Assembly (NCBI GenBank): GCA_963920705.1 | Contig: OY987233.1 | Coordinates: 8,608,001 to 8,672,000 of the forward strand | Length of the DNA: 64,000 nt | DNA from: Odiellus spinosus | Lineage: Eukaryota > Arthropoda > Arachnida > Opiliones > Phalangiidae | Reading direction: 5' to 3' | Shown here: positions 165 to 63,642 of the stretch, one piece after another | How the letters are laid out: every line of letters begins with the position of its first letter | Position numbering within the stretch: position 1 is the first letter of the stretch | Position numbers and translations under genes: made by a program | Notes under the pieces: model-generated | Database searches by the model: none | The model's input: only the letters and a program-made list of their open reading frames with translations | Told to the model about the DNA's origin: nothing

Positions 165-3100
165 CTTAAATTCATTCGTTACTTTACTCCTACAATCGGC
201 GTATGGTTTTAAGATTTGCTCGTTATAATCCTGAATGAATTTGAATAGTAATATTTTTAAGATCAACTGATTCTTTCCCCTTTTGACTTTCAAAACTAGA
301 CCCCATTTGGCTTTCAAAACTAGCCCCCCCATTTGGCTTTTAAAACTAGCCCCCCCATTTGGCTTTCAAAACTAGCCCCCCCCCATTTGGCTTTCAAAAC
401 TAGCCCCCAATTTGGCTTTCAAAACTACCCCCCCCCCCATTTGGCTTAGAAAACTAACCACCATTTGGCTTAGAAAACTAGCCTCATTTGGCTTTGAAAA
501 CTAGCCTCATTTGGCTTTGAAAACTAGCCTCATTTGGCTTTGAAAACTAGGCTCATTTGGCTTTGAAAACTAGGCTCATTTGGCTTTCCGAACTAGCCCC
601 ATTTGGCTTTCCGAACTAGCCCCATTTGGCTTTCCGAACTAGCCCCATTTGGCTTTCCGAACTAGCCCCATTTGGCTTTCCGAACTAGCCCCATTTGGCT
701 TTCCGAACTAGCCCCATTTGGCTTTCCGAACTAGCCCCATTTGGCTCTCCGAACTAGCCCCATTTGGCTTTCCGAACTAGCCCCATTTGGCTCTCCGAAC
801 TAGCCCCATTTGGCTTTCCGAACTAGCCCCATTTGGCTTTCCGAACTAGCCCCATTTGGCTTTCCGAACTAGCCCCATTTGGCTTTCCGAACTAGCCCCA
901 TTTGGCTTTCCGAACTAGCCCCATTTGGCTTTCCGAACTAGCCCCATTTGGCTTTCCGAACTAGCCCCATTTGGCTTTCCGAACTAGCCCCATTTGGCTT
1001 TCCGAACTAGCCCCATTTGGCTTTCCGAACTAGCCCCATTTGGCTTTCCGAACTAGCCCCATTTGGCTTTCCGAACTAGCCCCATTTGGCTTTCCGAACT
1101 AGCCCCATTTGGCTTTCCGAACTAGCCCCATTTGGCTTTCCGAACTAGCCCCATTTGGCTTTCCGAACTAGCCCCATTTGGCTTTCCGAACTAGCCCCAT
1201 TTGGCTTTCCGAACTAGCCCCATTTGGCTTTCCGAACTAGCCCCATTTGGCTTTCCGAACTAGCCCCATTTGGCTTTCCGAACTAGCCCCATTTGGGTTT
1301 CCGAACTAGCCCCATTTGGGTTTCCGAACTAGCCCCATTTGGGTTTCCGAACTAGCCCCATTTGGCTTTCCGAACTAGCCCCATTTGGCTTTCCGAACTA
1401 GCCCCATTTGGCTTTCTGAACTAGCCCCATTTGGCTTTCTGAACTACCCCCGTAGTCTTCAGAACTATCAATTGCGTATAGGCTAAGCCGAAATTTTCAA
1501 GAGCCGAGACGCTTGATTCGTGTTTGAAGAATCTTTGAAGGCCATTCCCTTTGGGAATTAGAAGACTCAAGGCCTAATCTCTTCACATTTGTCCACCTTT
1601 ACTTTTGCAGCGCGTACTGTAGGAATTGTTTACTTACATTAGAGATGTAGAGAGCCTCATTTTACGTATGCTGACTACTTATACTATTTAAATATTGCGT
1701 AATATATTCAAGGTGTATGGGAGCCCTCAAACGAACTACACATTCATATATCATACTATACCGCGGATAGATAACTTAAGATACTACTCACATTGATGCA
1801 AGGAAATATTTTCAAATATTTTTCTATTGTTTCGTTTGAAAGTATACCTGAAAAATACGTTAAAAAAAATTTTTAGAACTACATGATCATGTTTGAAGTG
1901 ACTATTGTCAGAAGCCGATGAAACCCTCCTTTGAAGTCTACTACTCTAATCTTTCATATAGGGCTTCTCTCTGTATGGGTAAAATTCACAATTTTACGAG
2001 ATCGTAGGGGTCGTACTTCATACCCCTTGTCTACGGAAAATTGGAAATTCTCTCTCTCCACAAACGACGAGGTTTTTTTGACGAACTCCAAGGCTGCTAG
2101 AGATATTCGCTCGACGAACTTCCGCTCCGAAAATATCTACCGTTAGGAGGCGTACGAATCGCGCTTTTTGAAACTAACCCATACAGAGAGGGGTAAACAA
2201 GACCCGGGAGTAATAGACTTCAAAGGAGGGTTTCATCGGCTTCTGCTATTGTAGTAAACAACGCCCCGTACCTTAATACTGTCAGCAAAGTTCCATTTTT
2301 ACGTCGTATCCCATCACTTAAAAATAGACAAAAAAGGCATCACCCCTGTCTGGCTCGAGTGATTTGGACTGTTCCTCGGTCGGGAGAAAGGGACGGAATT
2401 TAGGCGGGCCGCGCTTGGTAGCAGACGGTCTAAATAGTGAACGGAGGAAGCGCCACTTTTTGGAGAAATTCCGGAGTTGGGGGGGGGGAGGACAATATGT
2501 CTTCCCCCCAACTCCGGAATTTCTCCAAAAAGTGTCGCTTCCTCCGTTCACTATTTACATGGCGATTGCGGCTGCTAGAGTGTCTCGAATCAGAATCTGC
2601 CGGTACATTTACTTGGAATTTTGCTGATAGTATTACGCTACGGGGCGTTGTTTACTTTTATGGAATAAAGTGATAGACTTTTAGAAATTTTTGAGCCTTA
2701 GCTCAGTTATAAAAATTTTAAAATGATGAGTTTGAGACAGAAGTGAACTTGTTCATTCATCCTAATTCAAATAAACATCATGAGCTTGAAGTGAGCGGTA
2801 AACTTTTGAGCCCGAGGTGAGCTCGACACCCATGTGTATGAAATGAGACAATGTGAGCTGAGCTCAATCTCCAGCGCACAGGTATATATGAAAAGAATAG
2901 TAAAAATCCCAACCACCAATGATATGCAGTCCAAAAGTTCAACGACCAACAAAGACATAAGATTACAGACAGTCGAATCGTAACCACTCATTGGTGTCAC
3001 AGGACATTAGCCCCTCATCTTGGCATTTTCCAAATTAATTAAGAAAAAGATTTTTACCTTTTTCCTTTTGCAATGTGGTGGCTTTGCACTTCTTCATGAA

Positions 3101-6100
3101 TTTTTCACCCCCGTATTTTTTTCTGCAACCCTTTCAATATTAAATATATATTAAGTAATTAAGATGTTTCAGGATTGTTTGAATATCGATTGCTAGAACA
3201 ATTTGAGTAACGATCAAGGTACTGTCGCTCTTGTACCGTCTTATCACAAGTAACGTAGTAGATATAAGTATATGACAGTAATACTGATAAACCTAATCAC
3301 GGTATGTTTCAAAGTTCACCATTTATCCGCCACTAATTTGTTTCGACTCCAAATCAGTCGAGATAGATAGACCTTATTCAGTGCCATCGACTTCTAGTTG
3401 TTTTTATGAACGATGAGGTGTAACCTAACAAAATAATACTTCGTCTCCTGAAACGGAAAAGGGGGAGCCGCATGTACGGCAACCTGAGCGGCGTGGACCT
3501 AATACAATATAGACATCTAGCGGAATTTCTTAGCACACTTTCGTCCGCTCTCTGGTCTTTTCATTAGAAATTTAGATTATTTAGGATTATTTAGGGACGA
3601 CAAGACGTGTTCCGCGTGTTTTCTTTCTTTTAACGGTTTCTTTTAACTCTTTTTCATCGTTTCTATTTCGTTTGTAAATAGTAATGAATGGCCAACTCGA
3701 AAAAAAAATCGATAAATCCGCTTATAATATGATGGCACCACTGTACTAGGCCCACGATTGTATATAATTTCGCGCTGTCGAAGATACAACGGGGAGCCCG
3801 AGTTAGGGGAACACAATTTTCCGTTCCAGGAGACGAAGTATTATATTCCTAGGTGTAACGGAAACTAAGCATGAACTCGAAGTATTATTAAACTGTGGTC
3901 CTATCCCTGATGACCACAAATTACATTTACTTAAATTGTTCTTGAATTGTGTTTCAAATATGAAAAATATTATTTACATCTTTATCATATTTTATTTCCT
4001 TGTTTAGAGACTTAAAGAAAAAAAAAATGAATTAATAGTTGCGATGACAATAAAAATGAGGCTATCAAGTAATGGAATTTGAGTAGTATCGTTAAAAACA
4101 TTTAAAGGGAGAATGCAACCTAATTACAAGTGATTTTTATTGATTCCTTATCGTTTAAAGAGGCCTAATTCACCGATAAAAAGTTTACAATACAAATATT
4201 AAACTAGAAATAAATTAAAAACTTACCCTTAAAATAGGCTTAATAGGATTCATGGAGATCCTGAATTGCGTCCGTGTAAGGTCTAGCGACCAATGAACAA
4301 AGGCCCGTCGTTCACGCGAGATCTCCACGAGACTTACAGTCGCGCGCGATTGGTCGCTAGACCTTACACGCGAGGAAAACAGGACCTCCATGAATCCCAC
4401 TAAGCCTATTTTCAGGGTAAGTTTTAAATTTATTTCTAGTTTTATATATGTTTGTAAATTTTTTCGCTAGTGGATTAGGCCTATTTAAACAATAATGAAT
4501 CGATTAAAAATCACTTGTTGTTAGGTTGCATCCTCCCTTTAAGAAAATCAATCGCTCTTGAATTTTAATTTTTTTTTTCACCTTTGAACACTAATTTCCT
4601 TATCAATTGGGACGATACCGTATATTTGTGGAACGTCATTAAAGATAATTTTGATACGAAAGGAAGTTGACTTGATCTGAATTAAGTACTTTCACGAAAA
4701 ATAACTCGAGTGCTAATTCGGTAGATTAATTCAAAAGTTCGTATTTTCCTTTTTTTTTTATTTCATTTGTTTAAAACTTAATAAGAATTTAATTGTTAGT
4801 ATTTACCTCGTCAAATTTTACACAAGCCTAAAATATTTATATGAAAATATCAATAAAAATTATGCAATAAGATTTTAGAATCAATTACCTCTTCTTTTTT
4901 ATCATCCTCCTTTGAATATGAAAATTTAAATATATAAAATTGAATAACACCGAATATAAATAACGAATATTATTAATGTACGAGACTGCTACCAAGAATT
5001 CATATTGTCCAATTTTTTCAATCATTAAATTTCTTTAAAGGGAAACGGAAGGAAATCGTTGAGTAATATCAAGAATCCATTCAGGTTCCATAAGAATATG
5101 GGCTCCAGTATAGCTTAAGCCTCTGGTACCATCCTCCCAAACTTTGTAACAAAAGTTTGTCTGCAATTTTCGCAACATTTGTACGCTTAGATCTTTTTTC
5201 GGTCGGCTCCATTTTTATTACCCAAAATATTATGTCAAGGTCGTTAGGGGCGCGGGGTAATAATATAATGTCAGGAGCGATTTACTTGAAAAATCGATTC
5301 GAAGCAGACGAACTTTTGCTACAAAGTTTGGGAGGATGGTTATTGAATCGCGGGCCTCCCATATTCTTATGGAACCTGAATGAATTCTTGGTTCTATGAC
5401 ATATGTATATATATTTTGAATTGATTTTTAACGATCTTTGCGAAAATGCTACTCAATTTCCATTTGGAGTTTATCAAAAATCCGTGAATGCTTAAGAAAC
5501 TATTTTTCTTCACTATGCAGTAGAAGTCTCGTAAACTAGTTTCATAATAAGGTTCTAGATAAATACTTACGAGTTTCAAAGAACAGGCCTCGTTTTCCAT
5601 ATGTCTCATTTCTTCATAAGTCTTAAGGAAAATAACAATTCGGGGTTACAAGAAATGATTTAAATAGTTATATTCTTTAGTTACTTACTTTTGAGCAATC
5701 ATCCGTAATCTTTCTCACTGCGTTATTAAGAAAAGAAAAAAAATATATAGTGTATTTAAACCGAGAATTATTGAAAGGTTGTTGGACAAAGTATTATACT
5801 TATGATAGTATTGTAAAGGAAGTAAACTAATTAATTATTAAAGGAGTCTGACGGAAAAATCGAAAGCTCTATTTTGTTGTTTGTAATAAAAAAAACCCTT
5901 ACTCCAGGCAAATATTTTTTAACTCCGCTTAATTACTACCAAATTAAGATTTAATGTCAGCGTTTTACCCTCCTACTACATTAAAACGTCCACCATCTTG
6001 TTTTATTTACAAAAGGGGATACCAACCAATCAAAATTTTTCTTTGGGAAAATCTTATTACGTGTTTTGTTAGATGGCGCAAGAGTCTCGAACGGGGTTCC

Positions 6101-6721
6101 GAGAAACATACTTTTGCTCGAATTGATATCTATGAGCAGGGTTCAAAATGGTGGTCGACCTTTAAATTCGCAATTTAAGGTATTTAAATACCATTTTTTC
6201 GAAATTTAAATTATTTAAATAGGCTTTTTTTCGCAATTTAACTATTTTAGATGCTTTTTTTTTGTCTAAGAAATCTAAAAATAAAGTTATCGCCTATTAC
6301 TCGCAATAGACGATTCCATAAAGTCTGCATATGTTCCAACCTTGAATAATGCTAACATCTTCCGTAGAAACGGGTTCTATTCAACGGCTATTTTTGTTAG
6401 TTTCAAGGTTGGCAAATGTATAGAAAATGCTATACTTTGAACCAACCTTGAAAAAACTCTAAATTTTCAATATAAACGGGTGCTTTTTAACGGCTATTTT
6501 ATCTGTTTCTACATTATTGTATATGATACTTTATAAAACCATCTATTTCCTTCAGTCTCCTTTTAGCGAAATTTACCTGGCAAAGGTTCTTCGCATATAG
6601 CGTCAAATTTTTTCATAAAAGAATCTGTGCATTTCGATTCTCCATCGGCGACTACAGCGTTAATTAACCCTATCAGGAACGTCAGAAATCCTAAAGCTAA
6701 AACCAAGACGCGTTTATCCAT
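165..6721 (-). CDS. g1: 13-exon small secreted Cys-rich protein gene, 3' end cut by window
   Basis: Unrecognised family; predicted secreted protein. Exons by alignment with paralogs (5' to 3' on minus): 6577-6721, 5689-5717, 5571-5621, 4889-4909, 4807-4827, 3978-4010, 3058-3130, 1792-1847, 165-230; exons 10-13 lie left of position 1. All borders are AG/GT and the 165 codons are open. The start at 6721 (MDKRVLVLALGFLTFLIG...) gives a clean signal peptide, probably cut after AVVA before DGESKC; an in-frame ATG ten codons upstream would put charged residues in front of it. Cysteines: two in exon 1, one each in exons 2, 3, 5, 8 and 9, two in exon 7 (GC and FMKKC). Exon 8 ends FPCIN, where paralogs have IPCIV. 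Intron 8 holds a 23-bp satellite and two MITEs; intron 5 holds a TTAA element; intron 3 runs from 4910 to 5570. Duplicate of g3. Function unknown. Confidence 0.85.
281..1448. repeat. 23-bp minisatellite in intron 8 of g1
   Basis: About 50 tandem copies. The first few units (to about 560) are the TTTGGCTTTCAAAACTAGCC type with variable C runs; from about 570 the homogeneous unit is TTTGGCTTTCCGAACTAGCC plus CCA (23 bp). Flanked by exon 9 (165-230) and exon 8 (1792-1847). No conserved coding capacity. Confidence 0.95.
1909..2245. mobile_element. MITE, 7-bp TSD group (CAGAAGCCGATG ends)
   Basis: 337 bp with long inverted ends (CAGAAGCCGATGAAACCCTC and its complement), flanked by CTATTGT on both sides. 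The paralogous site in g3 (about 22,825) lacks it. No transposase. Sister copies at 27,232 and 47,699. Confidence 0.85.
2254..2656. mobile_element. MITE with AGTAAACAACGCC ends and internal palindrome
   Basis: Inverted ends GTAAACAACGCCCCGTA. Contains a near-perfect palindrome at about 2436-2552 (arms GTGAACGGAGGAAGC...CTCCGGAATTTCTCC around a G-rich loop) that copy B (22,841-23,172) does not have. Confidence 0.8.
4106..4538. mobile_element. TTAA-target MITE (AGGGAGAATGCAACC ends)
   Basis: 433-bp non-autonomous element with ends AGGGAGAATGCAACCTAAT and complement, flanked by TTAA. The matching place in g3 (24,202-24,205) has a single TTAA and no element, proving the TSD. A TTAA target is typical of piggyBac-type elements; no transposase is present. 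Confidence 0.88.
5070..5390. mobile_element. MITE, 7-bp TSD group (CAAGAATTCATTCAGG ends)
   Basis: Inverted ends CAAGAATCCATTCAGGTTCC and complement. Present in g1 and absent from g3; roughly 280 bp seen in g3 (about 25,100-25,370) are missing beside it, so the insertion came with a deletion or replaced an older element. Confidence 0.8.
5842..6564. mobile_element. MITE-derived segment in intron 1 of g1
   Basis: Starts TTAAAGGAGTCTGACGG and ends CTTCAGTCTCCTTTTAG, a decayed member of the AGGGAGCCTGAAGG family. It ends about 12 bp from the exon 1 splice donor and so supplies most of intron 1. The same state occurs in g3 (25,843-26,315). Confidence 0.65.
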
Positions 6722-7455: not shown

Positions 7456-8953
7456 TGACTTCCTGTGTGCTAAGTAATATACGGAAATTCAAGGTTGATA
7501 TCATTAGTACAGTTTAATTTATTCAGTCGAGAATATACAGATATAATGTTTTGAAAATTTAAATATTCAAATATTAACGATGTTTTTACGCGGAATGTTG
7601 AATTTTTGCGCAGCTGGTTGATCATGAAACAATCATTATCGTTATAAATGTAATGGACTATTCCCACCAAAGGGTCGACCATTTTGCTTGAAATTCAAAA
7701 TATGATTAACGTTCTCCATGGGAAATTAACTTTGAAATAACTTAATCACTCCCAAAATTAAGCAGCTTTAAAATTTCAAAGTCTCTTGAAAATTCGTACA
7801 CAAAAACCAATCCTACTGTTCCGCAACTTATACTTTGAAATAGATTCGCGCGTGCTAACTAATATACGGAATTTTGCAGTTAATCACTCTTACAATTTAT
7901 TTAATCATTTCAGAATGGTTTTAAAAATTAAAGTTAACTCCAAATTTAAATTCTGTAGCATTTATATATGTATGTATGTAAAAATGTATGTCACAGGAAA
8001 AATTTCCGCAACTGTAAAAATACATTTATATATTCGCCATGTATTTTATAAATTTTTAACATAAAAATTCCCCGCAATAAATGCGTCATCATTGTGGTCG
8101 CTTGACTATTGTTGAGTTTGCTTTTGATTCTCGCGCGTTAACAATCTTTCGCAGAATGCTACTCAATTTTCATTTTAAGTTCATGAAAAATACGTGACAG
8201 CCTCGCATAAATTTTTAGGTTACATGTTATTATTGTTTACATGATGAAAATCTAATGATATATAAATTTTTTTGAATTTCAGATACCCATCTTTGTTTCT
8301 TATGACATAATCGTCATCATTATCATCATCATAGAACGTCTCTGAAGGGTCACGTTTGGCCACTGGAGCAGCGAGAGGCCAATCAACGATCAAGTTTAAA
8401 TGGCGGTCCTGATACGAGAGGGTCGCGGAAACTCGAAAAATGGTTTCCGAACGCGTAACGCCATAAAGCTCAAACATGGCCGAACAATTACAGTCGCGAA
8501 TATTTTAATTTTTAAGTTTCATGCCTTTTAATCAAAATTAACCTGATCCACTCTGAAAGAACCACCATCTTCTAGATCTTCAAAAATGTAAGTAATCATG
8601 TTTTTTATGAAAATCGATCGTGATATAAAGAGCGCTGTTGCCAAAAATTCTGGTTTATGCGTGCTCCGAAGCTCTAGACTTCGTGAAACTCACCTTAAAT
8701 TGGTTAATCTGTAATCTGACCCATATTAACCTTCCAATTAGCCTAATAATTTACAAAACGGGCTTAAATTAACTACTGCATAGCCTCCATTGTCCAAACG
8801 AATATTTTTTTAATTATGCACAGGTATAAGGTATATAATGACGATAGAGAACAAATAATTTTGAGTTCATGCTATTCTACACACGCACGTACATAGAAAA
8901 AATATACTTTGATTATTTATAATTAAATATTTAATCGGTAAATATTGTTTCTT
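7456..8953. other. g1-g2 spacer, no gene seen
   Basis: AT-rich spacer conserved with 27,575-29,210. An 86-codon open frame on the minus strand (8220-8477) is broken by a 5-nt length difference in copy B, so it is not treated as coding. The element-free GTAATAT site at 7474-7480 is the empty counterpart of the insertion at 27,232. Confidence 0.7.
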
Positions 8954-9641
8954 CTACATCTTATAATTATTGAAGAGCTCGAGACATTTTTGATCCTGCA
9001 AAACGTGAAATATTATTAGTTTTTTATAATTTACATCATTATTTAGGTACCTTAAATGTTTCGAAACGTTTACGCATTTCATCCCTACACTGCGAGCGAG
9101 AAAAAAATCCAAATTATGTCGGTTGATATATTTTATACGTAATTAAAATATTAAACTTACTTTAATGGTGTTTTCGCAACCCTGCATGGATCAAAACGGA
9201 TTATAATTTAGATAAAACATTAGTCGCGTTCACACTACAGACTTTCAAACCCGTTTTCAATGGAGAATCGTTTCTTACCTTTTTCACGTTAGAATCCACC
9301 TGATACAAAAATAAAAGGTTAAAAATTCTTGTTAAAGAATTAATTGGATATAGAGATCGTACCATAAACTCATTCGATTATACATAACATGGGAATACAA
9401 CATTAGCCTTTGCTATTACCATCCTCTTCCAAAATTCGTCTGCTATTCGCCTTCTCATATATATAAAAACAATAGGGCATTCTGTCGTTTAATTTTTGAA
9501 CAGGGACTTTATGTAAGCTATAGGTCTTAATTTACTGACTATGTATCCAATAGTTATGGAAATATTTAATTTTTATTAAAAAAAATTAAATCTTATAATT
9601 AAGTATTCGAAAATAGGTTTAGAATATTATTTTGGGCTAGT

Positions 9642-10209
9642 CAGAGTTCGTACACGACCTAGAAAACCTGGAGAAGTCAGGGAATTTAGAAATTGGCCCA
9701 AAAGGTCAAGGAAAAGTCAGGGAATTTGAAAATTGGCCCAAAAGGTCAGGGAACAGTCAGGGAGTTGGAAATTGGCTTACGCGGTCAGGGAACAGTCAGG
9801 GAGTTGGAAATTGGCTTACGCGGTCAGGGAACAGTCAGGGAATTTGAAAATTGGCCCAAAAGGTCAGGAAAAAGTGAGGGAATTTGAAAATGAGCCCAAG
9901 TGGTCAGAGAAATTAAATATTTTGGTACGTGTCAAGGAACTGTTTATGATTGGTTTGACCAATTCATTGTAACGAAATTATTATAAACTGAAAATATTTG
10001 CTTAAAGATTCAAATTTGTTTCTCATATTCTGAGTAAACTATTGACCCTGATTTATAAACTATGTCAAATAAAAAGTGGGAATTGCCAAGAGCTCGCTCG
10101 TAAGAATAAATTCACAAAAAAAAAAGATTAAAATTGGTCTGGGAAATTATTTAGAAATGGTCAGGAAAGACCTGGAAAAGTCAGGGAAATAAATTTTCTA
10201 CGAACCCTG
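9642..10209. mobile_element. hAT-like non-autonomous element with CAGGGAA repeats
   Basis: Ends CAGAGTTCGTACA and CGTACGAACCCTG-like, with internal tandem blocks of about 40 bp containing GGTCAGGGAA and GTCAGGGAATTTGAAAATTG. Short-open-frame ORFs in it are repeat artefacts. Intron 9 of g2. Copies at 29,898, 33,569 and (CAGGGTTGCC type) 24,314. Confidence 0.75.
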
Positions 10210-10412
10210 CCCTATGTTCTTAGGTAATAAATAAGTTCTTAATACTCATACCTTAAATTCTTTCGCTATTTTAGTTGTGCAAGTTTCATACGGTGTCCTG
10301 AGCTGCACATTTATATCCTAACAATTAAAAATGAATATAGTTAGTCAATATTTAAATTTACGTTTCTGCTGTCCAAATAAAAATATTCCAATCCAGAATA
10401 TTTTATATTTAT

Positions 10413-10797
10413 ATACAAGGTGTTTCGAAAATGGTGGTAGGACCGAGCTACAGTGGGTTCTATGGGTCATTTTAAGACGAACATATTCTATATCGTTTTG
10501 TCATACGGGGCGCCGTTCAAGAGTTACGAAATGAATCATGTACGGATGACCCCTTAACGTACATTAATAAACGTATGCTCAATGATAAAATACGTTTAAT
10601 TATTTAGCTGGTGTTTTAAAAAAATGATTGTATCATTGAGTATACGTTTATTAGTATACTTTAAGGGGTCATCCACGCAAGATTAATTTCGTAATTCTTG
10701 AACGGCGCCACGTACGACAAAACGTCATAGAACATTTTCGTCTTAAAATGACCCATAGAACCCCCTGTAGCTCGGTTTTCGAGACAACCTCACCCTT
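10413..10797. mobile_element. Long-TIR foldback MITE (ACAAGGTGTTTCGAAAA ends)
   Basis: Ends GTGTTTCGAAAATGGTGGTA and complement; inner arms around AACGTACATTAATAAACG form a hairpin over nearly the whole element. Copies at 30,545-30,882 and 57,912-58,309. TA-rich insertion sites fit a Tc1/mariner-type parent; that assignment is inference. Confidence 0.75.
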
Positions 10798-11082
10798 TAC
10801 TCAAAATAGATTAAAATTAACTTGGTTCTAGACATTGCTATCCATTTAAGCCTCACAAATTACCTTACTCATTAACCTTATTCCCCTTTATATGAAAAAA
10901 TATATACTCACGACTATGCAAGGAATATGTTGCTTCATTTTTTCAATTTCCTCTTTTGTGAAAACTATTAAAAAATAACTTTTGAGGGTAAAATATATCG
11001 ATTAACGAAATGCTATCGGTGTCGAGACATGGTTCATATATTATATTCTGATTTTGCAACTAGATCATTAGGTCCTAGTATT

Positions 11083-11811
11083 TTAAACAGATTATCCCGC
11101 AAGAAGTCCATGTCAGACATTCTATAAATGGTTAATGGTGGCTTTGACGAGTCACGTCACTCAAGAGAACCAATAAGATAACGCGCAAGCAATCAGGCAA
11201 AAAGAAGCTTAAATGTTATTATAAGTCGATTGGTATTTATCAATGATTCGTGTGAATTTAATCCAACTCTGCTCTTCTGCCCGAATTAAGAAATTCTTCC
11301 TTCTTATTAAAATAATTTACGAGGCTACTATCTTAAAGGGAGAATGCAATCTAATAACAAATGACTTTTAATCGACTCCTTATCGTTTAATTATGCCTAA
11401 TCCAACAGTAAAACAAGTTACAGACAAATATGAAACTAGAAATCAATTTAAAACTTACCCCGAAAATAGGCTTTGCGGGAATTCATGGGGATCCTGAATT
11501 TCTTCGCGTTGAAGGGTCATCGACCAATCGAATGTTATTGGTAGTCTCATAGAGATCCCGCCTTATAACGATGGGCCTTTGCTCATTGGTTGCTGACCCA
11601 TCAGTTCGAATAAATACCCTCTCTCTACCTCCTTTTTAGAAAAAGAAAAAGAAATGGACGGAGGTAGGGCGTAAGAGGAGTTTCCTGCAAATTAATCACA
11701 GTTATACGAAGTTTAAGGATTGAATAAACCCGATAACTTAATAAATATTCGAAGGAAACCTCGACCAAATACGTTTCACCGCATTCCTGATGCATCTATT
11801 CAGAGAACCCG
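11083..11811. repeat. 730-bp direct repeat, left copy
   Basis: Matches 17,338-18,061 to its end and 31,160-31,695 in part. It contains the left part of a TTAA MITE (from 11,337) that is broken at about 11,615 and joined to unrelated sequence. Confidence 0.85.
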
Positions 11812-12894: not shown

Positions 12895-15070
12895 AGGTAT
12901 TAACATCCAAAATAATGAAAAAAATAATTTAAATTTAGTTTAACGGGTAATGGGAAAAATATGAAGATTTCGCTGCGGCTGTCGGAGGTATTAACATAAA
13001 AAATGATGAAAAAGTTATTTTAAATTTGGTTTAAGGGTAATGGGGAAAATATAAAGATTTCGCTGCGGTTGACGGAGGTATTAACATCAAAAATGATGAA
13101 AAAATAAATTTTAATTGGGATTAAAGGGCACTGGTAAAAATGTAGAGATTTGACTGAATCAAGTGCAGCTGCCGCAGCTATTAACATCAAAAATTATGAA
13201 AAAATTAATTTTAATTGGGATTAAAGGGCACTGGTAAAAATGTAGAGATTTGACTGGAATCAAGTGCGGCTGCCGGAGGTATTAACATCAAAAATTATGA
13301 AAAAATTAATTTTAATTGGGATTAAAGGGCACTGGTAAAAATGTAGAGATTTGACTGGAATCAAGTGCGGCTGCCGGAGGTATTAACATCAAAAATTATG
13401 AAAAAATAAATTTTAATTGGGATTAAAGGGCACTGGTAAAAATGTAGAAATTTGACTGGAATCAAGTGCGGCTGCCCCAGCTATTAACATCAAAAATTAT
13501 GAAAAAAATATATTTTAATTGGGTTTAAAGGGCAATGGTAAAAATGTAGAGATCTGACTGAATCAAGTGCGGCTGTCGCAGCTATTAACATCAAAAATTG
13601 TGAAAAAATTAATTTTAATTGGGATTAAAGGGCACTGGTAAAAATGTAGAGATTTGACTGAATCAAGTGCAGCTGCCGCAGCTATTAACATCAAAAATTA
13701 TGAAAAAATTAATTTTAATTGGGATTAAAGGGCACTGGTAAAAATGTAGAGATTTGACTGAATCAAGTGCGGCTGCCGCAGCTATTAACATGAAAAATTA
13801 TGAAAAAATTAATTTTAATTGGGATTAAAGGGCACTGGTAAAAATGTAGAGATTTGACTGGAATCAAGTGCAGCTGCCGCAGCTATTAACATCAAAAATT
13901 ATGAAAAAATTAATTTTAATTGGGATTAAAGGGCACTGGTAAAAATGTAGAGATTTGACTGGAATCAAGTGCGGCTGTCGGAGGTATTAACATCTAAAAT
14001 TATGAAAAAATTAATTTTAATTGGGATTAAAGGGCACTGGTAAAAATGTAGAGATTTGACTGAATCAAGTGCGGCTGCCCCAGCTATTAACATCAAAAAT
14101 AATGATAAAATTAATTTTAATTGGGATTAAAGGGCACTGGTAAAAATGTAGAGATTTGACTGAATCAAGTGCAGCTGCCGCAGCTATTAACATCAAAAAT
14201 TATGAAAAAATTAATTTTAATTGGGATTAAAGGGCACTGGTAAAAATGTAGAGATTTGACTGAATCAAGTGCGGCTGCCGCAGCTATTAACATGAAAAAT
14301 TATGAAAAAATTAATTTTAATTGGGATTAAAGGGCACTGGTAAAAATGTAGAGATTTGACTGGAATCAAGTGCAGCTGCCGCAGCTATTAACATCAAAAA
14401 TTATGAAAAAATTAATTTTAATTGGGATTAAAGGGCACTGGTAAAAATGTAGAGATTTGACTGGAATCAAGTGCGGCTGTCGGAGGTATTAACATCTAAA
14501 ATTATGAAAAAATTAATTTTAATTGGGATTAAAGGGCACTGGTAAAAATGTAGAGATTTGACTGAATCAAGTGCGGCTGCCCCAGCTATTAACATCAAAA
14601 ATAATGATAAAATTAATTTTAATTGGGATTAAAGGGCAATGGTAAAAATGTAGAGATCTGACTGTTTCAAGTGCGGCTTCCGCAGCTATTAACATGAAAA
14701 ATTATGAAAAAATTTATTTTAATTGGGATTAAAGGGCACTGGTAAAAATGTAGAGATCTGACTGAATCAAGTGAGGCTGCCCCAGCTATTAAAATCAAAA
14801 ATTATGAAAAAATTAATTTTAACTGGGTTTAAAGGGCAATGGTAAAAATGTAGAGATCCGACTGAATCAAGTGCGGCTGCCCCAGCTATTAACATCAAAA
14901 GTTATGAAAAAATTAATTTTAATTGGGTTTAAAGGACAATAGTAAAAATGTAGAGGTCTGACTGAATCAAGTGCGGCTGTCGCAGCTATTAACATCAAAA
15001 ATTATGAAAAAATTTATTTTAATTGGGTTTAAAGGGCAATGGTGAAAATGTAGAGATTTGACTGAATCAC
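12895..15070. repeat. 101-bp satellite array with 5-mer higher-order unit
   Basis: About 21 monomers of 100-101 bp (ATTAACATCAAAAATTATG ... AATCAAGTGCGGCTGCCGCA). Diagnostic variants recur every 502-503 bp: ATTAACATG at 13,784 and 14,286, ATTAACATCTAAAATT at 13,985 and 14,488. The edges are more diverged. No open frame. Confidence 0.95.
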
Positions 15071-15133: not shown

Positions 15134-17346
15134 TATTATATCAAAAATGTCTTTGCGAACAAAGACCCAGAAGGACATGTTATGGCCTTGAATGTCTGAA
15201 GTGACATATATTTCATTTTCTTTTAAAACATTAAATTTAAATACAATTAAATTTTCTTTTAAAACATGAAATTTAAATATAATTAGATTTTCTTTTAAAA
15301 CGAAATTTAAATATAATCACAATCTGGCACGATTTAGAGTTTCAAATTTCAAAACAACTGATTTTATTCACTCGGAAATATTTAAGAAAAAACATAACAG
15401 ACGATTTTCTCCCATTGACGCTTAACATTAAATTTCGCTTAATTATTTTTCAGGGATTACGTGTCAAACAAAACGAAACTTTTCGTTCGATAGAAAAATT
15501 TACTTAATTTAGCTTTGGCTTTAGGCGTAGAATCAAAGTTCTATGATCTGATCTCATACCTTAATTGGATAATGTTTTCTATGGATAATGTTTTATTATA
15601 ACTCCTCGACTTTAGTCGAGGCAATTCGTTCATGTTAGCTTATGAATGCTTATACAAGGAATTTAAAGGGAATAAAAATTCCCCATATTTTAATTTTTAA
15701 TCTAGGTTGCAAACGAACAAACCTAACCCATGGATAATGTTTTATTACAACTCCTCGACTTTAGTCGAGGCAATTCGTTCATGTTAGCTTATGAATGCTT
15801 AGGTATGTACCCATTTCGCCCAAAATATTTCGCCCAAAATGATCTATTCCCATTTCGCCCAAGGCATTTTTTGCCCAAAATTATCTATTCCCATTTCGCC
15901 CAATCCTACTTTGCCCAATCGCTTTATCATTTGGCCCTAAATTATCTCTTCCCATTTTGCCCAAACTAAAAATTCCTTTTCTCAATTCGCCCAATCCCAA
16001 TTTGCCCAATCGTTTTATCAGTTAGCCTAGAATTATCTATTCCCATTTCGCCCAAACCAAAAATTTCTCTTCCTTTTCGCCTAAAACGATTAAAGCTTAA
16101 ACCTTTTAAAATTTAAAGTCTTAGTAGGCCAAAAAAGTGACTTTTATTTAATTTAGGTTAGGTTAGGTTAGGTTAGGTTAGGTTGGGGGAAAAAAAGGGG
16201 GAAAATGTGACTTGGGCAAAATGAGATTGGTCCAAATCAAAATTGGGCGAAACGAGATTGGGCGAGAAGACATTAGGCCAAATGGAAATTGGGCGAAAAG
16301 AAATTGGGCCAAATGGGGTTGGGCGAAATGGGATTTGGGCGAAAAGAAATTGGGCGAAATGGGAATTGGGCGAAAATAAATTGGGCGAAATGGGGGTAGA
16401 CCAATGCTTATACAAGGAATTTAAAGGGAAAAAAATTCCCCATATTTTAATTTTTAATTTAGGTTGCAAACGAACAAACCTAATCCATGGATAATGTTTT
16501 GTTATAACTCCTCGACTTTAGTCGAGGCAATACGTTCATGTTAGCTTATGAATGCTTATACAAGGAATTTAAAGGGAATAAAAATTCCCCATATTTTAAT
16601 TTAAGTTGCGAACGAACAAACCTAATCGATGGATAATCCTAATAACTAATTAGTGGTCCCTTATGGAAATCATCATTTAAATTGTACGGTTTTAATGAAA
16701 AGAAAAATGAAAGTATTACAATTTATTTAAAAACCTTATCCGCTCCAAAATTCGTCGCTTTGAAGTTCTCTTCCCTTGCGCGCGCAATATAGCTTTGAAA
16801 GTACAAATTGTTATGGTTTGCCTCGTCTGCTAAGTTAGAAAAGAAGGTGACTTTAAACGGGCTTTAAAAAACACATTTCCCTTTATCATATACCCATTCC
16901 AATAAACCGGCGAGTATTTTTAACGATCCGTTCAATTGTGAGTCGTGGAAATTCGGGTTAAATTAAGAAAACAAAAAGTGGACTCGCGTTATACTGAAAA
17001 ATAACAGTTCAATACACGTTTTCCCTGAAAAATAATTAAGCGAAATTTAATGTTAAGCGTCAATGGGAGAAAATCGTCTGTTATGTTTTTTCTTAAATAT
17101 TTCCGAGTGAATAAAATCAGTTGTTTTGAAATTTGAAACTCTAAATCGTGCCAGATTGTGATTCTATTTAAATTTCGTTTTAAAAGAAAATCTAATTATA
17201 TTTAAATTTCATGTTTTAAAAGAAAATTAAATTGTATTTAAATTTAATGTTTTAAAAGAAAATGAAATATCTGTCACTTCAGACATTCAAGGCCATAACA
17301 TGTCCTTCTGGGTCTTTGTTCGCAAAGACATTTTTGATATAATTTT
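15134..17346. mobile_element. 2.2-kb element with about 320-bp terminal inverted repeats
   Basis: Left arm 15,134-15,455 and right arm 17,033-17,346 are inverted copies (ATATCAAAAATGTCTTTGCG ... CGCTTAATTATTTTTCAGGG). The inside has about 150-bp repeats starting GGATAATGTTTTATTA with a CCTCGACTTTAGTCGAGG hairpin (about 15,590, 15,730 and 16,490) and the block at 15,806-16,405. No transposase. Confidence 0.8.
15806..16405. mobile_element. Foldback block of CATTTCGCCCAA repeats with TTAGG tract
   Basis: Left half has repeats of CCCATTTCGCCCAA, right half the inverted TTGGGCGAAATGGG; it splits one of the 150-bp units (15,803 and 16,408). Near its middle (16,153-16,184) is a run of about six TTAGG units. 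Confidence 0.8.
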
Positions 17347-18061
17347 AAACAGATTCTCATGCAAAAAGTCCATGTCAGACATTCGATTTTGGTGGTTTTG
17401 GCGAGTCACGTCACTCAAGAGAACCAATAAGATAACGCGCAAGCAATCAGGCAAAAAGAAGCTTAAATATTATTATAAGTCTATTTCGATTGGTATTTAT
17501 CAATGATTCGTGTGAATTTAATCGAACCCTGCTCTTCTGCCTGAATTAAGAAATTCTTCCTTCTTATTAAAATAATTTACGAGGCTACTATCTTAAAGGG
17601 AGAATGCAATCTAATAACAAATGACTTTTAATCGACTCCTTATCGTTTAATTATGCCTAATCCAACAGTAAAACAAATTACAGACAAATATGAAACTAGA
17701 AATCAATTTAAAACTTTCCCCGAAAATAGGCTTAGCGGGAATTCATGGGGATCCTGAATTTCTTCGCGTTGAAGGGTCATCGACCAATCGAATGTTATTG
17801 GTAGTCTCATAGAGATCCCGCCTTATAACGACGGGCCTTTGCTCATTGGTTGCTGACCCATCAGTTCGAATAAATACCCTCTCTCTAACTCCTTTTTAGA
17901 AAAAGAAAAAGAAATGGACGGAGGTAGGGCGTAAGAGGGGTTTCCTGCAAATTAATCACAGTTATAGGAAGTTTAAGGATTGAATAAACCCGATAACTTA
18001 ATAAATATTCGAAGGAAACCTCGACCGAATACGTTTCACCGCATTCCTGATGCATCTATTT
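17338..18061. repeat. 730-bp direct repeat, right copy
   Basis: Matches 11,083-11,811, including the broken TTAA MITE and its unrelated continuation, so it copied the junction formed in copy A. Confidence 0.85.
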
Positions 18062-38255: not shown

Positions 38256-45608
<7,353 letters not shown>

Positions 45609-53400: not shown

Positions 53401-54450
53401 AATGGATCGAATGCGTTTCGATCTATAAATGGCCCTCTGGTCGATGAAATGGCTTCGTTGTCCATGAAATGGCTTCCTTGTCCATGAAATGGCTTCCTTG
53501 TCCATGAAATGGCTTCCTTGTCGATCAAATAGCCCCATGTCGTTCAAATAGCCCCCTTGTCGATCAAATAGACCCTTGTCCATCGAATCGTCACCTTGTC
53601 GATCGAAACGCCCCATGGTAGATCGAAACGCCCCCTTGTCGATCGAATCGCCCCCTTGTCGATCGAATCGCCCCCTTGTCGATCGAATCGCCCCCTTGTC
53701 GATCGAATCGCCCCCTTGTCGATCGAATCGCCCCCTTGTCGATCGAATCGCCCCCTTGTCGATCGAATCGCCCCCTTGTCGATCGAATCGCCCCCTTGTC
53801 GATCGAATCGCCCCCTTGTCGATCGAATCGCCCCCTTTTCGATCGAATCGCCCCCTTGTCGATCGAATCGCCCCCTTGTCGATCGAATCGCCCCCTGGTC
53901 GATCGAAACGCCCCCTGGTTGATCTAAATAGCCCCCTTGTCTGTCTAATTAGACCCCTTGTCGATCGAATAGCCCACTTGTCGATCAAATAGCGACCTTG
54001 TCGATCATCTGAAATTCGATTACTTGGACTCAAGTCAGATCACGATATACTTATACCAATTTCAGTTTACAGGCTTCAACATCAAGGGCTCTCAATTCTT
54101 CGTACGTCTAAAGGCAATATTTCGGGGTCACAATTGCGCTTTAAGATAACGATTGTTTTGACTTACTTTTGTGCAATTGTCTACAACTTCAAACACTGTC
54201 CAGGTTTTACAAAGAGGAAATGTCATGATTTTTAGTTAGAAATATTAAGGTTATTTAAGTATATCTTTCGCTTTAAACTTATCGCGCTTTACGAGAAGTA
54301 TATACCTGGAAGAGGTCGTCCACAAACTGATTCCATGCCTTTCAGTACTTTTTCCGTACATTTTAATTCTCCATCGGCCGAGACTTCTCCTATTTGTCCC
54401 GTTAGGAACGCCGTCACTACGAACGTTAAAACCAAGACGCGTTTCTCCAT
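47402..54450 (-). CDS. g6: complete 13-exon small secreted Cys-rich protein (212 aa)
   Basis: Exons: 54306-54450, 54167-54195, 54057-54107, 53144-53164, 53048-53068, 51948-51980, 51476-51551, 50238-50290, 50076-50141, 49777-49797, 47628-47648, 47528-47566, 47402-47464; 639 nt with every border AG/GT. Exon 1 has a signal peptide (MEKRVLVLTFVVTAFLTGQI) and the KCTEKVLKGMESVCGRPLPG segment. Twelve cysteines give two sets of six. Residues between neighbouring cysteines are about 11, 12, 14, 12, 17 in the first set and 25, 14, 17, 5, 15 in the second. Exon 3 and exon 9 both place Cys at residue 13 (EACKLKL, AACKNKVKEQFA). Last exon DQTCLKKYAEAQKANMKKKD. Intron 3 carries a 20-bp satellite. TATA-like box about 45 bp upstream of the ATG; AATAAA at 47362-47367. 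Function unknown. Confidence 0.9.
47699..48036. mobile_element. MITE, 7-bp TSD group, in intron 10 of g6
   Basis: CAGAAGCCGATG ends, flanked by GAAATAT at 47,692-47,698 and 48,037-48,043. Confidence 0.9.
48214..48872. mobile_element. TIR element (AAGCCTGGTTTTCA ends) in intron 10 of g6
   Basis: Ends AAGCCTGGTTTTCACTAGCC and GGCTAATGAAAACCAGCCTT. A 92-codon + strand frame in its right part (48,614-48,892) runs over the end and is not considered a gene. Confidence 0.7.
48880..49270. other. Unassigned intron 10 sequence of g6
   Basis: Less AT-rich, no repeats or open frames that I can assign; absent from the same intron of g7 and g8. Confidence 0.45.
49278..49558. mobile_element. MITE, 7-bp TSD group (CAAGAAGGATCAGA ends)
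   Basis: 281 bp, flanked by GTTTGAG at 49,271-49,277 and 49,559-49,565. The same intron of g5 has the empty site (TTTAGTTTGAGGAGAGATA at about 39,597). Confidence 0.92.
50564..50996. mobile_element. TTAA-target MITE in intron 7 of g6
   Basis: 433 bp, TTAA at 50,560-50,563 and 50,997-51,000. Very similar to 4106-4538, so both are young. Confidence 0.9.
51072..51374. mobile_element. MITE, 7-bp TSD group (CAAGAATACATTCAGG ends)
   Basis: 303 bp, flanked by CTAATAC at 51,065-51,071 and 51,375-51,381. The same intron of g7 shows the empty site (CTCTAATACTTAACC near 58,455). Confidence 0.92.
51598..51752. mobile_element. Short TIR element (GCCTCGTTTTCAATCAA ends)
   Basis: Ends AGCCTCGTTTTCAATCAA and TTGATTGAAAACGAGCCT. 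A longer relative sits in the same intron of g7 (58,656-59,132). Confidence 0.7.
52049..52610. mobile_element. TIR element (GAGCTCGGAATTCGTATA ends) in intron 5 of g6
   Basis: About 560 bp, close to 34,826-35,391 along its full length. Confidence 0.75.
52620..52730. repeat. Small hairpin element in intron 5 of g6
   Basis: GGTTTAATCAGATTTGG...ATCTGATTAAACCGG arms; the related hairpin 59,435-59,572 lies in the same intron of g7. Confidence 0.6.
53335..54012. repeat. 20-bp minisatellite in intron 3 of g6
   Basis: About 33 units; the core is 15-20 near-identical GTCGATCGAATCGCCCCCTT units, with diverged units (TCCATGAAATGGCTTCCTT) at the left. Shares GTCGATCGAAT...CCCCC with the 23-bp array of g5. 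Confidence 0.95.
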
Positions 54451-59500: not shown

Positions 59501-60934
59501 AGTTTAATTAACTTCGGTTTATTCTGATTAAACCGGCTAATTAAGCCTCGTCTGAAGAGAGTCAGTTTCGAAATCTTTTAAGAAATCATAATATTACGGG
59601 TAGTTTTTTAAAAACTAAATTGAAATAATACATTATTTCAAATCTGTATCACTCTGAACAAACCGAAAACAAGAAAATATGAAGTACACCCTTTAAAGTG
59701 AGGCTACCATGGATTTTTTATGAACTTGAAATGTAAAAGTACTAGGCCTAAACCCAGTATGTAAATTATCATTATCAAATAATGTTGACAGCCACACTTT
59801 AATAAATATCACCAGTCCATAGATTTTTGAGCCCAAAAGAACAAGAAAAAATAGGAATTCCATAGGATTCATTTTGGTATAATAGTATGCATTATAATGA
59901 ATTATAGCATCACTATGAGCCCCGTCACTGGTTACTTGATTGAATAAGGCACGCGTAACTTATATGAAAATAATTATCAATAGTTACCTTCAAATGCTTG
60001 GCGCAGGCCTTAAACGTGTTGAAAAAATATATTTTGTTAATAAATTTGCTTAATTATATATGGATGATGTTCAAGTATACCTCTTCTTTTTCATCATAAT
60101 TCTGAGGATGACATTTGATAAAAAAAAACATTGATTTATTATTTACTGATATTGTAAGAGTTTAAATTGGAAAGCGTCAATATGGTGTATTCTTAATAGT
60201 CCCTAAGGGGAAACCCGCGCTGATGGGAAACCCGCGCCGATGGGAAACCCGCGCTGAGAAACCGGCGCTGATGGTAAACCCGTGATGATTTGAAAGCCGC
60301 GCTAATGGGAAAGCCGCGCTGAGAAACCGGCGCTGATGGTAAACCCGTGATGATTTGAAAGCCGCGCTAATGGGAAACCCGCGCTGAGAAACCGGCGCTG
60401 ATGGTAAACCCGTGATGATTTGAAAGCCGCGCGCTAATGGGAAAGCCGCGCTGATGGGAAACCCGCTCCGATGGAACTCCGCTAATTTGCATTATTCAGT
60501 AATACCGTTGTACTATTCCTTCTTATGTACCGCATCCTAGCTTCAAATCACAATTATATATACGTATACCGATTTCAGTTTACAGCATTCAACTTGAAGG
60601 GCTCTCATTTCTTCGTACGTCTAAAGACACAATAATTCGGGGTCACAATTGCGCTCGAAGATATCGATTGCTTCCACTTACTTTTGTGCAATTGTCCACA
60701 ACCTTTTTCGCTTTTTACAAACAGGAAATGTTTAGATTTTGAATTAGAAATCGTCAAGATTATTTAAGTACAACATTCGCTTTGCATACCTGGACGAGGA
60801 TGATCACAAATTGATTCCATCTCTTTCAGTTCTTTTTCCGTACATTTTGTTTCTCCATCGGCCGCGATTTCTCCTATTTGTCCCGTAAGGAACGCTGTCA
60901 CTACGAACGAGACAACCAAGACGTGTTTCTCCAT
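56592..60934 (-). CDS. g7: 13-exon secreted Cys-rich gene with in-frame stop in exon 9
   Basis: Exons: 60790-60934, 60682-60710, 60570-60620, 60081-60101, 59988-60008, 59337-59369, 58535-58610, 57677-57729, 57485-57550, 57208-57228, 56808-56828, 56701-56739, 56592-56630. Signal peptide MEKHVLVVSFVVTAFLTGQI. Splice sites are intact throughout, but exon 9 contains TAA (57491-57493) where g6 and g8 have CAA. A normal transcript would stop after about 162 residues and lose the cysteines of exons 11-13; without that stop the protein would be 204 aa. Exon 9 is 66 nt and phase 0-0, so skipping it would keep the frame but lose one cysteine. This is either a young pseudogene or an allele with a shortened product. 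It is the most compact copy (4.3 kb), with a TATAAGAG box and AATAAA at 56527-56532. Confidence 0.85.
57912..58309. mobile_element. Foldback MITE (ACAGGGTGTTTCGAAAA ends) in intron 7 of g7
   Basis: Full-length relative of 10,413-10,797 with best-preserved ends TACAGGGTGTTTCGAAAATG. Confidence 0.8.
58656..59132. mobile_element. TIR element (CCCCTTTTCAATCAA ends) in intron 6 of g7
   Basis: Longer relative of 51,598-51,752; ends TTTTCAATCAACTTTTTCAA and TTGATTGAAAACGCGGCTTT. Contains a G-rich run at about 58,899. Confidence 0.62.
59435..59572. repeat. Hairpin element in intron 5 of g7
   Basis: Inverted arms CTTCGGATGAGGCCTAATTA and TAATTAAGCCTCGTCTGAAG around a second TAATCAGATTT/AATCTGATTA-like pair. 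Confidence 0.6.
60207..60480. repeat. GC-rich tandem array in intron 3 of g7
   Basis: Units such as GATGGGAAACCCGCGC and a larger repeat of about 60 bp (GAGAAACCGGCGCTGATGGT, then CCCGTGATGATTTGAAAGCC). Unrelated in sequence to the arrays at the same place in g5 and g6. Confidence 0.9.
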
Positions 60935-60976
60935 CGAACCTTGAATTAGAACCAAACATTAAATCTATTCGCGTGT

Positions 60977-60984
60977 CTCTTATA
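60977..60984 (-). promoter_or_regulatory. TATA box of g7
   Basis: TATAAGAG followed by ACACGCGAATAGAT, 43-50 bp upstream of the ATG. The start context CAAGGTTCGATGGAGAAA is shared with g5 and g6. Confidence 0.6.
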
Positions 60985-61664: not shown

Positions 61665-61715
61665 TTAAGCCTAAGTTCAAACGTCGATTAAGGCTTAATC
61701 GACGTTTGAAATTAC
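61665..61715. repeat. Remnant of the GTCGATTAAGCC minisatellite upstream of g7
   Basis: Two or three inverted units only (AACGTCGATTAAGGCTTAATCGACGTT is a perfect palindrome here), at the position of the long arrays at 46.6 and 55.8 kb. Confidence 0.8.
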
Positions 61716-61962
61716 GCTAATTATCATGCTTCCATTCTTTAGCTCTATTTTGTGTTAAATAGCGTTAAAAATATTGACATCTTAAACAGTAGCGTAAAAT
61801 AGATGCCCAGAAAGAGTTGGGCGCTTGAACATTGCTGTATTCCAACGAGAGGTTTATGTTTGGCACCATTTCTTGATATAACATACTGTAGCTCCCAAAA
61901 CACCCCCCATATTTGTATAGAAAACATACACTTGACTCGGAGAATAACTACGATTTGATTCT

Positions 61963-61968
61963 TTATTA
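61963..61968 (-). promoter_or_regulatory. Poly(A) signal of g8
   Basis: AATAAAGAATC about 32 nt after the stop of g8. Confidence 0.65.
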
Positions 61969-61999
61969 TTTATACGATAGTGTTTAATCGGTATATCTG

Positions 62000-63642
62000 T
62001 TAATTATTTTTCTTCATTTTCTTCTCACGAACGCCCCGGAGGTATTTCTTGAGACATTTTTGATCCTGTAAAATATGAAATCTTAACTTTTTACAGTATA
62101 TAATTTAGTTGAGTCTTCGATACCTTAAATCCCTTGTAAAGATTCTTGGTCTCGTCGTCACACTGCGGACATATTAATTATATCTTTGTATCAAATTAAA
62201 ATTCAATTTTTTCCAAATTCCTATATTTACCTTAATGATGTTTTCGCAGCCCTGAATAGAAATGAATTACAGATCAGATATTAAAATAAATTTCAAACTG
62301 TCTTATTTGTTGTTGAGAATCATTTTGTTTGAGAGGGAGAGTCGTTACGTACCTTTTTGACGTCAGCATTCGCCTAATCATTAATCGGAAATAGGAAAAG
62401 AGAAGTGTTAAACGATTTGAACCTATTTCTATATTGAATTCAACACGAAAGAGTTTTCGACATTATAGACAACAATTTTTAACTTATTTTCGGAATTCGA
62501 GATTTGCTAAAGAAGATTTGTGAGTAATTTATCGTTTAAATAGGCCCAATCCACTAGTAAAAAAATTACAAATCCATATTAAACTAGAAATTAATTTAAA
62601 AGTTACTCCTAAAATAGATTTAGCTGGATTCATGGAGATCCTGAATTTCTTCGCATTCATGAGTTAGCGACTATTTAAATGTTATTGGAAGTCTCATGGA
62701 TATTTCGCCTTATTGACGGGCCTTTGCTATCATTGGTCGCTGCATGACCCACCGCGAATATAAGTTAAGCTGATCTCCATGAATCAAGCTAAGCCTATTT
62801 TCCATCTTAAATTTATTTTCAGCTTAACATTTGTTTGTAAACTTTTTTACCGGTGGATTAGGATTATTTAACGATAATGAATCGATAAAAGTCACTTGTA
62901 GCGAATTATGTTGTATTCATTCTTCCTTTAAGGATTTGAATGATTTAACAGGGACCGATTATATCAAAAGTCTATTCCCTAAAAATAAACAACGCCTCGT
63001 AGCTTAATACTATCAGCAAAGGTTCAGTTTTACGTCATAGCCCATCACTTAAAAATAGTCAAAAAAGTCATCACCCCTGTATGGCTCGAGTGGTTTGGAC
63101 TCTTCCTCGATATTTTGAGTCGGGTGAGAGGGACGAAAATTAGGCGGTCCGCGTTTCGCTATATTGTCTTCCCTCCCAACTCGGGAATTTCTCCGCAGAG
63201 TGTCGCTTCCTCCGTTCACTATTTACACGGCGACTGCGTCCTCTATAGTGTCTCGAATCAGAATCTGTCGGTACATTTACCTCGACCTTTGCTGATAGCA
63301 TTAAGCTACGCGGCGTAGTTAACGTTTGTGGAGTAAATTGATAAACTTTTGACTATATAGATTTGTAGGAGTGTCGGACCCCTGGACAAAACATCTCCTA
63401 CCGCAAATTGTTCTTCCACTTTATTCCTACAAGCCGTGTAGGGTATAAGGAGTTGCGTGTTAATATCCTACAGATCAAAAATTAAATAATTAATTCTTTG
63501 CAAATTAGAGAATGTTAATAATTCACGCGTAATATAAGTGTCCCACATCGGGTAATTTAAACAGTGAAAGATTATAATTAAGTGCTCACGACCACACAAG
63601 GAATAGTTTCCAATTTTGTTTCCATTTCTTCTTTAGTGTAAC
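62000..63642 (-). CDS. g8: 3' part (exons 8-13) of another copy, running off the right edge
   Basis: Exons in window: 63590-63642 (8), 63402-63467 (9), 62353-62373 (10), 62231-62251 (11), 62124-62162 (12), 62000-62065 (13). Exon 8 reads YTKEEMETKLETIPCVV after the split codon, exon 10 ANADVKK, exon 11 GCENIIK, exon 12 CDDETKNLYKGFK; the last exon starts DQKCLKKYLRGV and ends in a Lys/Asn-rich tail. Frame and phases match g6, and the codon that is TAA in g7 is CAA here. AATAAA at 61963-61968. Exons 1-7 should lie beyond position 64,000. Introns 8 and 9 contain a decayed TTAA element and a long TIR element. Confidence 0.86.
62520..62932. mobile_element. Decayed TTAA MITE in intron 9 of g8
   Basis: Recognisable body (GGCCCAATCCACTAG, CATGGAGATCCTGAATTTC) and right end TGCATTCTTCCTTTAA-like (ATTCATTCTTCCTTTAA); the left end is missing. 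Confidence 0.65.
62961..63352. mobile_element. Long-TIR MITE (CAAAAGTCTAT ends) in intron 9 of g8
   Basis: Outer ends ATCAAAAGTCTATTCCCT and GTAAATTGATAAACTTTTGA, inner AACAACGCCTCGTAGC. Diverged relative of 42,037-42,404. Confidence 0.68.

Follow-up and report, generated by a model that had tools for sequence, protein, structure and literature searches.

A tandem cluster of microexon genes for putative fast-evolving secreted proteins in a probably chelicerate genome

The window analysed here, 64,000 bases of contig C11 (C11:8608001-8672000) of a 443-Mb assembly, was read together with 110 kb of added flanks, which contain one run of 5,000 N (8705959-8710958). On the minus strand, window and flanks carry a tandem cluster (C11:8606140-8690025) of eight thirteen-exon genes and one 3' fragment, g7 (Table 1). 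The cluster totals 110 exons and 101 introns, 100 of which are GT-AG. The single GC-AG intron follows exon 3 of g5, and these borders are those proposed in the initial annotation of the window. That annotation had counted eight copies with 13 exons each. The exon series and its order hold, but g7 is limited to exons 8 to 13, the window edges truncate g1 and g8, and a ninth copy, g0, is added from the right flank.

The genes are chains of 13 exons, the shortest of 21 nucleotides (nt). Eight of the 11 internal exons have a length divisible by three and nine are in phase 0, which bears out the earlier remark that their phase departs from that of aphid bicycle genes. The proposed exon lengths stand with one exception: in g6 and g8, direct reading of the sequence gives 73 nt instead of 76 for exon 7 and 56 nt instead of 53 for exon 8. 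Copies differ in the length of exons 1 to 12 by multiples of three, a regularity to which the search itself contributed, since it ran with most lengths preset. Exon 1 encodes, as anticipated, a signal-peptide-like segment followed by KCTE or KCTD; five of its six copies starting in the window (first positions of g2 to g6 and g8 in Table 1) were found with tblastn and the one at 45608 through a motif. Seven of the eight thirteen-exon copies are open and code for 205-216 amino acids (aa). The exception is g2, also taken to be open in the initial annotation, whose exon 9 carries an in-frame TAA. In g0, exons 2 and 3 are present as four tandem copies (C11:8689780, 8689263, 8688594 and 8687944) with identical peptides and, over most of their length, at least 99% identity. 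Because the pair adds up to 80 nt, only one copy can be used per in-frame transcript, and the fourfold repetition is possibly an assembly artefact.

Table 1. Positions of the genes of the cluster and of two associated features (window numbering unless preceded by C11; exons in order of transcription)
Feature	Position	Strand	Remarks
g0, ninth copy	C11:8690025-8676890		right of window; flank scan
g1, exons 1-7	C11:8675614-8672031	-	beyond window edge, flank; whole gene open, 214 aa
g1, 3' part	8 63642-63590, 9 63467-63402, 10 62373-62353, 11 62251-62231, 12 62162-62124, 13 62065-62000 (stop)	-	exon scan, reading
g2, 13 exons	60934-60790, 60710-60682, 60620-60570, 60101-60081, 60008-59988, 59369-59337, 58610-58535, 57729-57677, 57550-57485 (stop inside), 57228-57208, 56828-56808, 56739-56701, 56630-56592	-	
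g3	54450-54306, 54195-54167, 54107-54057, 53164-53144, 53068-53048, 51980-51948, 51551-51476, 50290-50238, 50141-50076, 49797-49777, 47648-47628, 47566-47528, 47464-47402	-	open, 212 aa
g4	45608-45455, 45345-45317, 45254-45204, 43055-43035, 42954-42934, 42634-42602, 41949-41874, 40563-40511, 40409-40344, 39910-39890, 39351-39331, 38424-38386, 38315-38256	-	open, 214 aa
g5	36832-36688, 35680-35652, 34455-34405, 34324-34304, 34225-34205, 33099-33067, 32037-31962, 31044-30992, 30442-30377, 29556-29536, 29438-29418, 29346-29308, 29252-29211	-	open, 205 aa; GC donor after exon 3
g6	26468-26324, 25708-25680, 25611-25561, 24924-24904, 24842-24822, 24109-24077, 23665-23593, 22774-22719, 21383-21318, 21112-21092, 19878-19858, 19444-19406, 19345-19292	-	open, 209 aa
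g7, exons 8-13 only	10964-10912, 10317-10252, 9299-9279, 9181-9161, 9089-9051, 8995-8954	-	copy of g5 tail
g8, 5' part, exons 1-9	6721-6577, 5717-5689, 5621-5571, 4909-4889, 4827-4807, 4010-3978, 3130-3058, 1847-1792, 230-165	-	
g8, exons 10-13	C11:8607948-8606140	-	beyond window edge, flank; whole gene open, 216 aa
Repeat in g5 intron 7	31156-31695		also 11080-11800 and 17335-18060; g5/g7 block ends there
TATA-like box of g2	60977-60984	-	50 nt upstream of start codon, by eye

The microexon gene family is real. When AG-GT segments with a set length and frame were chained from copy to copy, the exon series emerged for four pairs out of six. The pairs g2/g3 and g2/g4 were chained without exon 9, and the chains of g6/g8 and g5/g6 strayed for some exons into shared repeats, those exons being read from the sequence. 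When exon profiles were run on both strands, true copies scored 14 to 105 and the best plus-strand segment of each exon type -3 to 12; the remaining minus-strand segments, which include different exons of the same family, scored up to about 15. Exon 13 was located by comparison between copies. Since the profiles contain most of the copies that they score, leave-one-out scanning, with the nearest duplicate also removed, is a fairer test: 67 of 68 exons outscored every splice-bounded open segment of the same length on both strands, the lone miss being exon 6 of g5. The 68 are the 73 in-window exons 2 to 12 minus exon 9 of g2 and exons 7 and 8 of g6 and g8. The missing exons 1-7 of g1 and 10-13 of g8 were recovered in the flanks, in order and in frame, and the rest of 8568001-8742000 gave merely isolated weak exon scores, up to 17.6.

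The seven open proteins align with 44 invariant positions, 12 of which are cysteines, the number given in the initial annotation. Their mature part is 38-42% charged, with a mean helix content of 59% by a rough Chou-Fasman prediction, and inspection of the alignment by eye reveals no low-complexity repeats. The codon tree of these copies (about 909 substitutions) would be expected to include about 51 stop-making changes in the absence of selection; one stop is observed among the eight thirteen-exon copies, the seven in the tree having been chosen as open. The ratio of replacement to silent substitution rates (dN/dS) exceeds 1 in five of 26 pairs (g6/g8 1.44, g2/g4 1.31, g3/g4 1.16, g2/g3 1.06 and g1/g4 1.06) and is 0.62-0.76 for g1/g3 and g1/g2. 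The pair g6/g8 has 27 replacements in 402 sites versus 158 changes in 3512 sites of introns and flanks (one-sided p 0.036), a comparison based on hand-chosen intron and flank blocks from which 272 poorly aligned columns were removed. Leaving out the signal peptide, the figures are 27 in about 335 sites and p about 0.005. Silent changes of this pair (4 of 93) are as frequent as intron changes, and its exons (495 nt) carry no insertion or deletion (indel) where about four would be expected from the intron rate (P 0.017). This pattern fits diversifying change on a constrained frame. The earlier description of a fast-evolving tandem microexon family is supported, as is secretion, given the signal-peptide-like exon 1.

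The proteins may be composed of two related halves. Exons 2-6 (29, 51, 21, 21 and 33 nt) parallel exons 8-12 (53, 66, 21, 21 and 39 nt) in length, with a permutation p of 0.028, or 0.013 when all 11 internal exons are permuted, and the two phase-1 introns stand six apart, an arrangement with a chance of 6/66. Peptide likeness between exon n and exon n+6 ranks 58th among 5040 pairings (101st after correction for length), and hhalign aligns the halves in the same register (P 0.041). Taken with their mutual dependence, these tests suggest that a unit of six to seven exons was duplicated within the gene long ago, giving rise to two six-cysteine halves.

Whole-genome queries hit this cluster alone, with all eight matches of exon 1 and all 17 matches of the whole protein (expectation value, E, up to 10); this search scores its best candidates only and reads short exons poorly, so that distant members elsewhere could escape it. 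Four proteins compared with Pfam gave no family match (one hit, at E 0.19, was below the cut-off), no saposin sequence domain, a fold that would escape where sequence likeness is absent, and no PBP_GOBP domain at E up to 10; with NCBIfam the single match had E 0.11. Profiles were built from four to six window copies. In PDB sequences the best hits of the whole profile and of both halves (E 0.38, 0.85 and 0.09) were judged to be chance. Among 5.8 billion proteins the whole profile retained none of 1740 candidates at E of at most 1 and the halves none of 19 and 189 at E of at most 10; none of 165 stretches from IMG/VR contigs and none of 147 from GTDB contigs matched. These negatives say little about other arthropods, since most of the libraries contain few arthropod proteins and the searches covered chiefly microbial or viral collections or could pick up none but close relatives. 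No thirteen-exon, twelve-cysteine family was found described in open PMC full text. The initial suggestion of an undescribed family agrees with the lack of a relative in these sequence libraries.

Several markers in the assembly bear on the host lineage. Arrays of (TTAGG)n, found at six of six contig ends and two of 23 contig starts examined, fit arthropods generally. The mitochondrion is contig C286, of 16,074 bases, in which cox1 abuts cox2. ARAGORN reports three trnL(UUR) candidates, the best of which (score 32, 9924-9991) lies beside nad1 while the other two score 19. In most chelicerates and myriapods this gene neighbours nad1; in Pancrustacea its general place is between cox1 and cox2 (PMC2194727). 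Arginine kinase, queried without the residues at exon edges, finds 1rl9, 1p52 and 1m15 (597-593 bits) and 5u8e (591) as its best single-domain PDB chains, the next ones running from 590 downward, with 5zhq and 7re6 at 584; two two-domain PDB entries total higher from two added stretches. The first three chains, which we take to be from horseshoe crab, and 5u8e, presumably from a spider, make the kinase lean towards chelicerates. The source is probably a chelicerate, perhaps an arachnid, and not the insect assumed by the initial annotation. Non-coding regions of the mitochondrial contig at about 5971-6300 and 9054-9400 share a long stretch, read by eye as a duplicated control region, and trnQ and trnI have moved next to trnL(CUN). 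Both features are reminiscent of the recombination that has been proposed in the harvestman Phalangium opilio (PMC3325882). A harvestman source is our guess by analogy.

The gene design recalls several known systems. Schistosome micro-exon genes (MEGs) are chains of small exons, many with lengths divisible by three, and their products are secreted. By description only, the present family shares such a chain (8/11 internal exons here), but MEGs belong to flatworms whereas the (TTAGG)n ends, mitochondrial gene order and arginine kinase of this assembly are of arthropod type. Insect odorant-binding proteins are small, secreted and helical, have six or twelve cysteines and form tandem clusters. 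The present proteins have no PBP_GOBP match and their cysteine spacing departs from the pattern of that family. With the pea aphid KQY and KHI cassette effectors they have in common a conserved signal-peptide exon, miniature exons and a divergent mature part, but KQY1a has 37 exons, 33 of them of at most 15 bp, and those loci are mostly scattered, compared with 13 exons of at least 21 nt in one cluster here (PMC7495047). Aphid gall effectors serve as an analogy only, because the source is probably not an insect.

The design also resembles that of aphid bicycle genes, which likewise have many small internal exons, a signal peptide, fast change, conserved cysteines, helical products (here by rough prediction) and often two modules (PMC9168663, PMC13041983). 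The differences are the dominance of phase-0 exons, the probable non-insect source and the rejection by the bicycle gene-structure classifier, which gave g3, g4, g5 and g6 a logit of about -38, or about -42 under the other phase convention (range -37.5 to -42.5). Its cut-off is 0.72, and phase 2 of that paper is phase 1 of the initial annotation (PMC9168663). Only two of 11 internal exons start at codon position 2, versus almost all in bicycle genes. Bicycle proteins carry two Cys-Tyr-Cys motifs, which non-aphid bicycle candidates lack (PMC9168663); here no tyrosine is found among the 44 invariant positions, the motif itself not having been scanned for. The same source describes close bicycle paralogues as often lying on separate chromosomes, unlike the single tandem cluster found here. 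As a whole, the family appears to fall within none of the effector families compared while resembling them in design.

We hold with moderate confidence that the cluster encodes diversifying, disulfide-rich, mainly helical secreted proteins (about 205-216 residues including the signal peptide) that would act on foreign or mating-partner molecules. The cysteine scaffold would keep the fold, built of the two six-cysteine halves that the suggested internal duplication may have supplied, while the remaining residues change quickly. This change could be driven by binding to partners that change in turn, possibly molecules of prey, host or microbe, or of the mating partner, and the proteins might be released from a salivary, digestive or reproductive gland. 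More tentatively, and rather doubtfully as a complete package, they could represent an undescribed, lineage-restricted arachnid family that reached independently the design of aphid effector genes: a steady signal-peptide exon, a disulfide scaffold of two duplicated six-cysteine helical halves, phase-0 exons down to seven codons and diversifying selection.

A number of results weigh against these interpretations. Deep pairs have dN/dS of 0.30-0.75 and g5/g7 of 0.07, and the tree-wide ratio is 0.89 for the whole protein and 0.81 for the mature part, which is thus the lower. Selection above neutrality therefore depends on one young pair, g6/g8, and some of the rapid change could reflect relaxed constraint. 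Shuffling of columns in the hhalign comparison of halves from seven proteins gave p 0.065, with an alignment over the last 22 columns only. As for the lineage, trnL(UUR) can move secondarily and the margin of the arginine kinase matches is small.

The same tree-wide dN/dS would be expected if constraint were weak outside the cysteines, and the proteins could then be secreted structural or storage products, for example of cuticle, egg-shell or silk gland, evolving fast with no antagonist involved. Their high charge content agrees with this explanation, which we find unlikely in view of the g6/g8 replacements in excess of the intron rate and of proteins free of low-complexity repeats. A decaying array of former genes, now mostly pseudogenes, would account for the stop in g2, the g7 fragment, dN/dS near 1 and introns full of repeats. 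The initial annotation had named a dN/dS near 1 with random indels inside exons as the mark against its proposal; the first is seen tree-wide, while the g6/g8 exons are devoid of the second. With seven open copies of eight and 100 of 101 introns GT-AG, despite silent distances among copies that reach about 0.8-1.3, decay is very improbable. Least probable is that the genes are bicycle lineage members diverged past sequence recognition, which would suit the shared gene kind, the possible two helical halves and the saposin-like folds, swapped or tandem, reported for bicycle proteins (PMC13041983), but conflicts with the classifier logit of the four copies, the phase of the internal exons and the chelicerate-like mitochondrial order and arginine kinase.

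Neither scans for open reading frames nor searches by homology pick up microexon families of this kind, so annotations may lack entire classes of secreted proteins; if the reading as an arachnid effector-like family is true, it would suggest that annotated chelicerate genomes widely miss such genes. A second such design outside Hemiptera, with another phase, would make it possible to ask whether chains of symmetric small exons favour rapid protein change, as they might because their loss, gain or skipping keeps the frame. The present cluster, which combines older and younger copies, one copy with a stop and a fragment, offers a compact setting for testing this effect.

The cluster has grown by tandem duplication, its copies being of differing age. 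Segments 8138-11615 and 28370-31695 are copies of each other and differ outside exons by 3.5% substitution (105 of 3014 aligned intron and flank sites). The g5 and g7 exons differ by 1.7% (4/242) and the introns and flanks beside exons 10-13 by 1-2%. This comparison shows no special constraint on the exons, and the idea that g7 exons 8-13 are a selected alternative 3' cassette of g6 was rejected. The block ends at a repeat of g5 intron 7 (Table 1), which suggests unequal exchange between repeats. Exons 1-7 of g7 were not seen in the exon-profile scans of window and flanks, and g7 was probably born without them.

Putative expression signals were judged by eye, without chance control and in AT-rich DNA: a TATA-like box precedes five of the six start codons (g2, g3, g5, g6 and g8) by 50-63 nt, g4 having TTTAAGAG instead, and AATAAA or ATTAAA is found within 60 nt of all seven stops examined. 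Rfam and transfer RNA scans of the window gave no hit.

Minisatellites occupy intron 3 of g4 (43173-45067), g3 (53440-54006) and g2 (60208-60474). The units of g4 (23 nt) and g3 (20 nt) resemble each other, as they would had they been copied along with the gene, and two minisatellite strings searched in IMG/VR were not found there. Intron 11 of g4 is mostly a long (AT)n run (38433-39100). Between g6 and g7 lies a satellite of 20 copies of a 100-bp unit (13064-15069), followed by an inverted repeat of 330 nt (15135-15464 and 17014-17343, 98% complementary, 1549 nt apart) that could represent the ends of a mobile element. The telomere unit TTAGG forms a short interstitial run at 16153-16184. Outside the window, C11:8680520-8680984 holds a 155-codon open frame that resembles by eye part of a mariner-type transposase. 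On contig C19, a match to U2 small nuclear RNA and the 5' end of an 18S ribosomal RNA gene are about 1.1 kb apart (L068:1-65 and L068:1197-1388), as if U2 lay in the ribosomal DNA spacer.

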